Assembly: GCA_018970145.1 (NCBI GenBank)
Contig: JAGWWY010000011.1
Coordinates: 1 to 64,000 of the forward strand
DNA from: Gammaproteobacteria bacterium
Lineage (GTDB): Bacteria > Pseudomonadota > Gammaproteobacteria > Steroidobacterales > Steroidobacteraceae
Direction: 5' to 3'
Length of the DNA: 64,000 nt
Numbering within the stretch: the first letter of the stretch is position 1; each line of letters starts with the position of its first letter. The notes under the pieces were generated by a model, which did not search any database, was not told the origin of the DNA, and saw only the letters and a program-made list of their open reading frames with translations. Shown here piece after piece: positions 34,912 through 36,432 of the stretch. The translations under genes were made by a program, and so were the position numbers.

Positions 34912-36432
34912 ATGACACTGCTGCAATCCGCTAGATCGGTCGTCTTTACCCACCTGTTCGACGTCGACGGTAAAAGCGCTACGGCGCGTCAGTTCGATAA
35001 AGTCGTCACTTGGTTGATCGTCGCCAATCTGGCGGCGTTGGTGCTGGAACACCTCCCGACGGTCTATGTCGCACACGAGGCCGCATTCGGTACTTTTGAC
35101 CGGCTCTCGATCTATTTCTTCACCGCCGAGTATCTGCTGCGTCTGTTTGCCGCACCGGCAGATCCGGCCTTTAAAGGGCGGCGATTTGCCACTTTACGGT
35201 TCTCAGTAACTCCGTTTGCCTTGATCGATCTGCTCGTAATTGCACCCTACTGGCTGCATCTGCTCGGAATTGTGGACCTCGACCTGCGGATGCTGCGCGC
35301 GCTACGCTTGCTGCGGCTGCTAAAGTTGATGCGCGATTTCGTCCCGGCAGTGAAAGAGTTTCGGCATATGAACGAGGGCCGAACGTTTCGACAAAAGATC
35401 GATGCCTTGATGAACGAAACGCCAACATCCGGTCGTTTGCATGACCAGCTCGATCTGATCTTCATCTTCTTTATCATCACCAGCGTCATCGCGGTATTTT
35501 TGGAGACCATTTCATCGATCCACGAGCCGCTGCGAGCGGAGTTCTATTGGTTTGATTTGGTCGCGATTATTGTTTTCACCGTCGAATTTTTGTTGCGTAT
35601 TTACGCAGCTCCGGAACAGTTTCACGGTAAATCAGCGATCGGTTCTCGTTTCGCATTTCTCAAAAAACCCACCAGCCTCATCGATCTGATCGCGATCGCA
35701 CCTTTCTATTTGCAGTTCCTGATCGCCGTCGACTTGCGGTTCATTCGAGTTCTGCGAGTGCTGCGAATCTTAAAGCTCACTCGATACAACTCGGCACTCA
35801 AAACCTTCGGCATGGTGCTAAACCGGGAGAAGCGCGCTTTCGCGGCGGCGATGTTCATCACCATGCTCATCACGATTCTCTCGGGCGCCATCGTCTACGA
35901 GTTCGAGCATCTTGCTCAACCTGAAAAGTTCGACACCATGCCCCGCGCGATGTACTGGGCGGTGATCACCCTAGCCAGCGTCGGTTATGGAGATATCTCA
36001 CCGATCACGCCCATCGGCCAAGCTTTCACCATGTTTCTCGCGCTCCTCGGGATCGGCATCGTGGCACTGCCCGCGGGTATCCTTGGCTCGGCGTTTTCAG
36101 ATCAATTGCACCAGCAACGCGAAGAAATGCTCAAGGCGGTCGAGGATGCATTCGCCGATGGCGTCTTGACTGAGGACGAGGCTAAACAGCTCGAGGAGGA
36201 GCGCATTCGCCTGCACTTGACGGAGGAGCAATTCGAACGCCTCAAGCAGCGAGCCATGTTGAAGCACGCACACCAGATCAACGCCGCTCAGTCGATGGTT
36301 GAGATCAGTGACAAACTAAACGACCTACGAAAAGCCCTCGATTCCATGCCGAGCGGACTCGCGATTGAGGAGATTCGCAAGCTGCCGTTGTCCGAACAAG
36401 AGAAGGCGGCGCTGATCGTCTTGCTCAAGTAG
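34912..36432 (+). CDS. Voltage-gated K+ channel with two tandem voltage-sensor domains
   Basis: 506 residues. First sensor: S1 31-49, S2 about 65-80, S3 102-119 (ALIDLLVIAPYWL), S4 124-141 with basic residues at every third position (R126, R129, R132, R135, K138, R141). After a linker (142-178) a second complete sensor follows: S1 182-199, S2 214-230, S3 255-271 (SLIDLIAIAPFYL), S4 275-291 (R276, R279, R282, R285, K288, R291). Then S5 about 310-329, a pore with selectivity filter SVGYGD (356-361) and S6 about 370-396. The tail (400-506) is soluble, acidic and helical. Typical bacterial Kv channels have one sensor and about 270 residues before the tail. ATG 34912 follows a G-run and is preferred to an in-frame start at 34786. 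The upstream 34703-34911 gap holds only a possible TTGACT -35 box. Confidence 0.9.
   Translation: MTLLQSARSVVFTHLFDVDGKSATARQFDKVVTWLIVANLAALVLEHLPTVYVAHEAAFGTFDRLSIYFFTAEYLLRLFAAPADPAFKGRRFATLRFSVTPFALIDLLVIAPYWLHLLGIVDLDLRMLRALRLLRLLKLMRDFVPAVKEFRHMNEGRTFRQKIDALMNETPTSGRLHDQLDLIFIFFIITSVIAVFLETISSIHEPLRAEFYWFDLVAIIVFTVEFLLRIYAAPEQFHGKSAIGSRFAFLKKPTSLIDLIAIAPFYLQFLIAVDLRFIRVLRVLRILKLTRYNSALKTFGMVLNREKRAFAAAMFITMLITILSGAIVYEFEHLAQPEKFDTMPRAMYWAVITLASVGYGDISPITPIGQAFTMFLALLGIGIVALPAGILGSAFSDQLHQQREEMLKAVEDAFADGVLTEDEAKQLEEERIRLHLTEEQFERLKQRAMLKHAHQINAAQSMVEISDKLNDLRKALDSMPSGLAIEEIRKLPLSEQEKAALIVLLK

Follow-up and report, generated by a model that had tools for sequence, protein, structure and literature searches.

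The window analyzed here, the whole stretch of 64,000 nucleotides of contig JAGWWY010000011.1 from a member of the Steroidobacteraceae, carries an uninterrupted open reading frame for a predicted K+ channel that combines two voltage sensors (VSD1 and VSD2) with a single pore. Relatives align from its ATG, and at locus L023 an in-frame stop codon lies directly 5' of the ATG. The gene and its parts are the following.

34912..36432, + strand: complete coding sequence of the two-sensor K+ channel, from ATG to TAG (506 aa)
34912..34989, + strand: N-terminus, residues 1-26, with a predicted pre-S1 helix (helix 2-16 in the full-length model)
34990..35343, + strand: VSD1, residues 27-144 (S1 27-48, S2 58-80, S3 101-120, S4 123-143)
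35281..35340, + strand: S4 of VSD1, residues 124-143, with R126, R129, R132, R135, K138, and R141
35344..35439, + strand: VSD1-VSD2 linker, residues 145-176, comprising the continuation of S4 and the pre-S1 helix of VSD2 in the full-length model
35440..35793, + strand: VSD2, residues 177-294 (Pfam Ion_trans match at 180-402)
35731..35790, + strand: S4 of VSD2, residues 274-293, with R276, R279, R282, R285, K288, and R291
35794..36117, + strand: S4-S5 linker and pore domain (S5-P-S6), residues 295-402
35977..35994, + strand: selectivity filter SVGYGD, residues 356-361
36118..36429, + strand: C-terminal helices, residues 403-506, helical in the model and matching no Pfam family above the cut-off

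An earlier note on this DNA, made from the letters alone, had described the protein as two S1-S4 modules, each with a basic residue at every third position of S4, placed ahead of one S5-SVGYGD-S6 pore, and had proposed an Ion_trans profile search as a check, with the lack of a second sensor match counting against the claim. That description is borne out. The Ion_trans profile (PF00520) matches both halves of the protein. The score is 50.4 bits (E = 2.2e-13), or twice the curated threshold, for VSD1 by itself (residues 27-142) and 118.8 bits for VSD2 with the pore. A search of the whole genome with this profile returned two matches (E = 8.5e-13 and 9.4e-35), both of them inside this gene. Each sensor has six S4 basic residues in the three-residue spacing, and the protein contains a single SVGYGD filter and a single Ion_trans_2 stretch. 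Voltage sensors are characterized by a charge-transfer center, formed by an aromatic residue of S2 and acidic residues of S2 and S3, and by the basic residues of S4 (PMC13095418); VSD1 has all of these (F70, E73, and D106; basic residues at every third position from R126 to R141) and, when modeled alone, is predicted to be a Kv-type sensor with a fold match of its own. Three lines of evidence confirm the 4+6 helix plan with two complete sensors: the profile search, the structure predicted for VSD1 on its own, and the recurrence of the plan in several genera and in single-contig genomes (see below). Judging from the sequence and the models, VSD2 connects to the one pore as in ordinary Kv channels, and nothing that defines a sensor is missing from VSD1. 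The model of the full-length protein is of moderate quality only (pLDDT 73.9, pTM 0.47) and hence does not fix the placement of VSD1 relative to VSD2. It has one helix spanning residues 125-153, from S4 of VSD1 into the linker, followed by a pre-S1 helix of VSD2 at 159-167; in the VSD1-only model, the S4-linker helix is broken at 137-138 and the tail is of low confidence.

Comparison of 27 aligned two-sensor proteins revealed strong conservation of VSD1. Its hallmark residues, namely E46 in S1, F70, E73, and D106 of the charge-transfer center, D124, and the complete set of six basic residues in S4, show no variation in 26 of these proteins; the single exception, from Gemmobacter, retains three of the six basic residues. 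In a set of 26 proteins, 26 of the 118 positions of VSD1 and 24 of the 118 positions of VSD2 are invariant, and mean pairwise identities are 0.589 and 0.567, respectively, with the linker (0.595) matching the level of the sensors. At the sequence level, VSD1 is conserved to the same degree as VSD2. Across the eight pairs for which it was computed, dN/dS of VSD1 ranges from 0.009 to 0.094; seven pairs gave a value for both sensors, and in five of these VSD1 has the lower one. These ratios are rough, several dS values being close to saturation. By this measure, both sensors are under purifying selection.

Genome samples used for tracing the gene were drawn non-exhaustively, with E limits from 1e-20 to 1e-80, and scoring covered the few best candidates of each genome; misses are therefore likely. 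Within the genus of the window, 10 of 24 genomes match the channel. Complete two-sensor ORFs are encoded in six of them: the window genome, G006 (matching at 96%), G009 and G010 (75%), and G005 and G021 (61-64%). The copies in G012 and G023 are cut by contig ends, and those in G018 and G019 are frameshifted. The other 14 genomes, some of them incomplete, show no channel gene, making the distribution patchy. A sample of the family found the gene in some state in 13 of 200 genomes, adding complete two-sensor ORFs from G075 and G084 and a copy broken in S5 (G066); intact two-sensor genes are present in two genera related to that of the window. In the order sample, all two-sensor matches among 296 genomes (E up to 1e-80) came from genomes of the same family, and the class sample (369 genomes, E up to 1e-20) yielded no further two-sensor match, the match in each of the 73 other matching genomes starting at query residue 143 or later. 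The phylum sample (398 genomes) added one genome, G948, of the distant genus g325. There, the two-sensor gene was detected in 16 of 101 sampled genomes (17 copies) and is intact in 15, of which 10 are single-contig; the copy in G1007 is out of frame near its start. Among 249 genomes of the family that includes g325 (E up to 1e-80), the gene was found in five, all of them g325, including two further genomes (G1153 and G1275) whose copies show both S4s. A gene with the two-sensor plan is also located on a plasmid of Gemmobacter aquarius (HYN69_RS20750, annotated as "ion transporter"); a search of 248 genomes (E up to 1e-40) from a family that may be its kin yielded no two-sensor gene.

Several candidates were rejected. 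The frame of the G1587 match, read by eye, has one sensor, and in the over-long open frames at L068 and L070 the second sensor is absent, again by eye. In the matches on Natrinema and Hymenobacter plasmids (a gene of 867 nt and a match spanning 744 nt, respectively), one sensor matches both halves of the query. A sequence titled Klebsiella pneumoniae (CAMCBU010000004.1) comes from a metagenome bin, and its match equals that of G006 from the genus of the window; the species name looks wrong.

A copy of the gene was also found in a viral sequence. A 6.9-kb viral contig (IMGVR_UViG_3300047512_000173, L089) encodes at positions 1-1434 a two-sensor channel that is truncated by the contig start before most of S1; its neighbors belong by profile match to the portal and endolysin families of phages and, more weakly, to Rz-like spanins. 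This was the sole viral two-sensor case in five scans of viral sequences. A search of the phage collection gave 19 matching records, of which not one covers 80% of the query, and the widest of their best places is 867 nt, one sensor's worth. Two large viral contigs have Kv-like genes whose open frames, 295 aa in L091 (340 kb) and 220 aa in L106 (390 kb), correspond in size to one-sensor channels.

Some copies of the gene are damaged, and some relatives lack VSD1. In G018 (L009), the frame breaks at a run of seven G in the S2-S3 loop of VSD1, a run that may vary in length or may stem from misassembly; at the site of the VSD1 break, G019 (L010) lacks about 14 nt relative to G005, as judged by eye. 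In both genomes, VSD2 and the pore remain open despite the frameshift, and VSD1 may be dispensable there unless the frameshifts are assembly errors. A second copy in G006 (L028, contig C33) is interrupted in S1 of VSD2 and is followed, close to the contig end, by a frame that resembles the start of an IS3-type transposase. The genus g325 also has one-sensor paralogs without VSD1 (L122, L124-L128, and L131). Five of the six paralogs in the g325 sample, as well as L131, sit in genomes that also carry a two-sensor gene, and the three paralogs inspected have a linker-like stretch or motif. Taken together with the weak S4 of the Gemmobacter protein, the frameshifts and the one-sensor paralogs indicate that VSD1 may be dispensable in some lineages.

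Phylogenetic trees were built for VSD2 with the pore (60 rows: 20 two-sensor proteins, six one-sensor paralogs, and 34 one-sensor channels) and for the individual sensors (80 rows, only 121 columns). In the first tree, the two-sensor proteins and the six paralogs form one clade (99/99), apart from the 34 one-sensor channels, and the paralogs are nested beside the g325-type two-sensor group, which includes the phage copy (100/97). The history that best accounts for this is a single gain of VSD1, followed by its loss in the paralogs. In the sensor tree, 19 of the 20 VSD1s group together (100/99), the Gemmobacter one being a long branch of uncertain place. The VSD1s from the family of the window are nested within those of g325 (forks 93/62 and 94/86), whereas their VSD2s and pores are separate in the VSD2-pore tree. 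This nesting misfits simple joint descent and may reflect either noise from the few columns or movement of VSD1 between the groups. The copy in one g325 genome, G974 (L107), falls within the group of the window in both trees, which suggests horizontal transfer between distant bacteria. Approximately unbiased (AU) tests rejected none of the constraints tried: a common clade of the two-sensor family (p = 0.512), a single VSD1 clade (p = 0.478), and a clade of VSD2 with the paralogs (p = 0.472). As for the source of VSD1, it shares 41% identity with its own VSD2 over 118 aligned columns; in a comparison with other sensors, this value is 42%, against an average of 38.7% (maximum, 45.5%) with the 34 single-sensor channels, which is the ordinary level of likeness between bacterial Kv sensors in these alignments. 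Since VSD1 is about equally similar to other Kv sensors, the likeness of the two halves is by itself no proof of an internal duplication; VSD1 may derive either from the gene's own VSD2 or, by fusion, from another Kv gene.

In g325, the channel gene has a neighbor of its own. A conserved gene for a small protein (positions 896-1462 of L094, and at the same place in L108-L121 and L123) precedes all 16 native g325 copies. Where complete, its product is ∼180-200 aa long, contains several cysteines, and has a hydrophobic stretch at the N-terminus. The two genes overlap by 4 nt (ATGA), with the channel ATG in frame, at 14 of these 16 loci; in G1007, the ATGA is present and the channel frame shifts after it, and the second G987 copy shows no overlap. 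The small protein has no Pfam match (two copies searched) and no PDB match (one copy searched), and no relative of it was found in the window, at the locus of the transferred copy (L107), or at the other loci compared. The small protein is a candidate auxiliary subunit.

VSD2 and the pore resemble the corresponding parts of prokaryotic and animal Kv channels of the KvAP, KvLm, Kv4, and KCNQ types in having basic residues at every third position of S4, an S4-S5 linker, and a GYGD filter, with S1-S4 followed by S5-P-S6 in one chain. The best sequence match in PDB is KCNQ2 (E = 5.5e-29), and the best structural matches of VSD2 and the pore are Kv4.2 and Kv4.3. The difference is the second complete sensor, at residues 27-142 of the same chain, which breaks the Kv rule of exactly one voltage sensor per pore domain. 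To our knowledge, all Kv subunits described so far carry one VSD each; among the 60 listed of the 223 PDB sequences matched by the whole protein, each matches in a single stretch. Two-pore channels (TPCs) also have two VSDs per chain; they follow a VSD-pore-VSD-pore plan with two pores and assemble as dimers. In the channel described here, VSD1 lacks S5-S6, and the single Ion_trans_2 stretch and single GYGD rule out a TPC-like plan. In the tandem Kv and CNBD channels of protists, the repeats are whole six-helix units with a pore in each (PMC7576140). The window protein shares with them the presence of sensor repeats within a chain but repeats the sensor alone, and the protist-tandem plan is ruled out by the absence of S5-P-S6 after VSD1. 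Hv1 proton channels and voltage-sensing phosphatases, like VSD1, have a sensor without an S5-S6 pore of its own, but VSD1 precedes a complete Kv subunit in the same chain and has a Kv-like S4. The S4 tryptophan that is totally conserved in eukaryotic Hv1, as stated in PMC10377628, is missing from VSD1, which makes an Hv1-like nature unlikely. The same paper has the known prokaryotic sensors coming with a pore domain. Modular K+ channels are treated in PMC12332018, and the passages of PMC13095418 on sensor anatomy contain neither "two voltage sensor" nor "two VSD". Among the papers listed in searches of an open-licence library, which leaves most subscription papers and preprints outside, no title or abstract opening describes a prokaryotic channel with two sensors per pore; within that scope, this agrees with the earlier note, which knew of no characterized channel with the 4+6 plan.

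We consider it reasonably probable (at about 0.6) that the gene encodes a homotetrameric voltage-gated K+-selective channel, each subunit of which is predicted to have two working sensors in series. Four subunits would form one pore with four VSD2s around it and four VSD1s at the periphery, i.e., eight sensors with 48 basic S4 residues per tetramer. The pore would be gated by VSD2 through the S4-S5 linker. VSD1 has no link to the pore, and its S4 continues, in the full-length model, into the linker and then the pre-S1 helix, so that a sensor in series is the most economical reading. Upon a change of the membrane potential, S4 of VSD1 would move, and the S4-linker helix would push or pull VSD2, whose displacement could shift, sharpen, or condition the opening of the pore. 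VSD1 would be a second sensor acting on the first one, with no role as a second gate on the pore. The functional ideas of the earlier note, eight sensors per tetramer and a possible regulatory role of the first sensor, are compatible with these data.

Other roles of VSD1 deserve consideration. It could be a passenger or scaffold, a sensor fold retained for assembly, membrane insertion, or lipid anchoring whose movement does not reach the pore. Such a role would agree with the paralogs that keep the linker and the channel without VSD1, with the frameshifts within VSD1 in two of the 10 gene-bearing genomes of the genus, and with the weak S4 in Gemmobacter. A scaffold, however, has no need for the full set of S4 charges, the S2 Phe and Glu, and the S3 Asp, yet these are identical in all but one of the aligned proteins, which come from several genera and one phage contig, and we regard this role as unlikely. 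VSD1 might instead sense voltage and report to a partner protein, and the small-protein gene that regularly precedes the g325 copies, mostly with a 4-nt overlap, could encode such a partner. No relative of that gene was found in the window or at L107, where VSD1 is equally conserved, and we regard this role as quite improbable.

Still more improbable is that VSD1 provides a permeation path of its own (a proton or gating-pore current) on a K+ channel. Isolated VSDs can conduct, as do Hv channels and the truncated Shaker VSD (PMC12332018 for the latter). The S4 of VSD1 (residues 123-143), with no tryptophan and six unbroken basic residues, argues against this. So does an invariant Asn in VSD1, N39, at what, in an alignment by eye, we assume to be the place of the Hv1 selectivity Asp. 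Finally, the earlier note had allowed for a sequence error fusing two genes. No observation speaks for two genes joined by sequencing or assembly, and intact two-sensor ORFs in six of the 24 genomes of the genus, in G075 and G084, and in 15 of the 101 g325 genomes (10 of them single-contig), along with the low dN/dS of the computed pairs, rule such an artifact out for practical purposes.

Seen across the sequences compared, a channel of the Kv kind with two sensors per pore is conserved and apparently mobile. A broader proposal can be put forward tentatively, as rather less probable than the serial-sensor reading itself. It holds that these proteins would constitute a natural class of channels with serial sensors, in which VSD1, off the pore, gates VSD2 through the S4-linker helix, yielding an eight-sensor switch (48 S4 charges) that is two-input or unusually steep; the class would have a single origin, be exchanged among freshwater bacteria, plasmids, and phages, and have, in one lineage, a dedicated small membrane subunit. 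Most work on the coupling between sensor and pore has used channels in which each pore domain has a single sensor. The window channel offers a fully equipped natural second sensor without S4-S5 wiring to the pore, and close one-sensor relatives, which mostly share their genome with a two-sensor gene, could serve as natural controls. The action of sensor on sensor, the additivity of gating charge, and the role of the pre-S1 helix would all be directly testable in this system.
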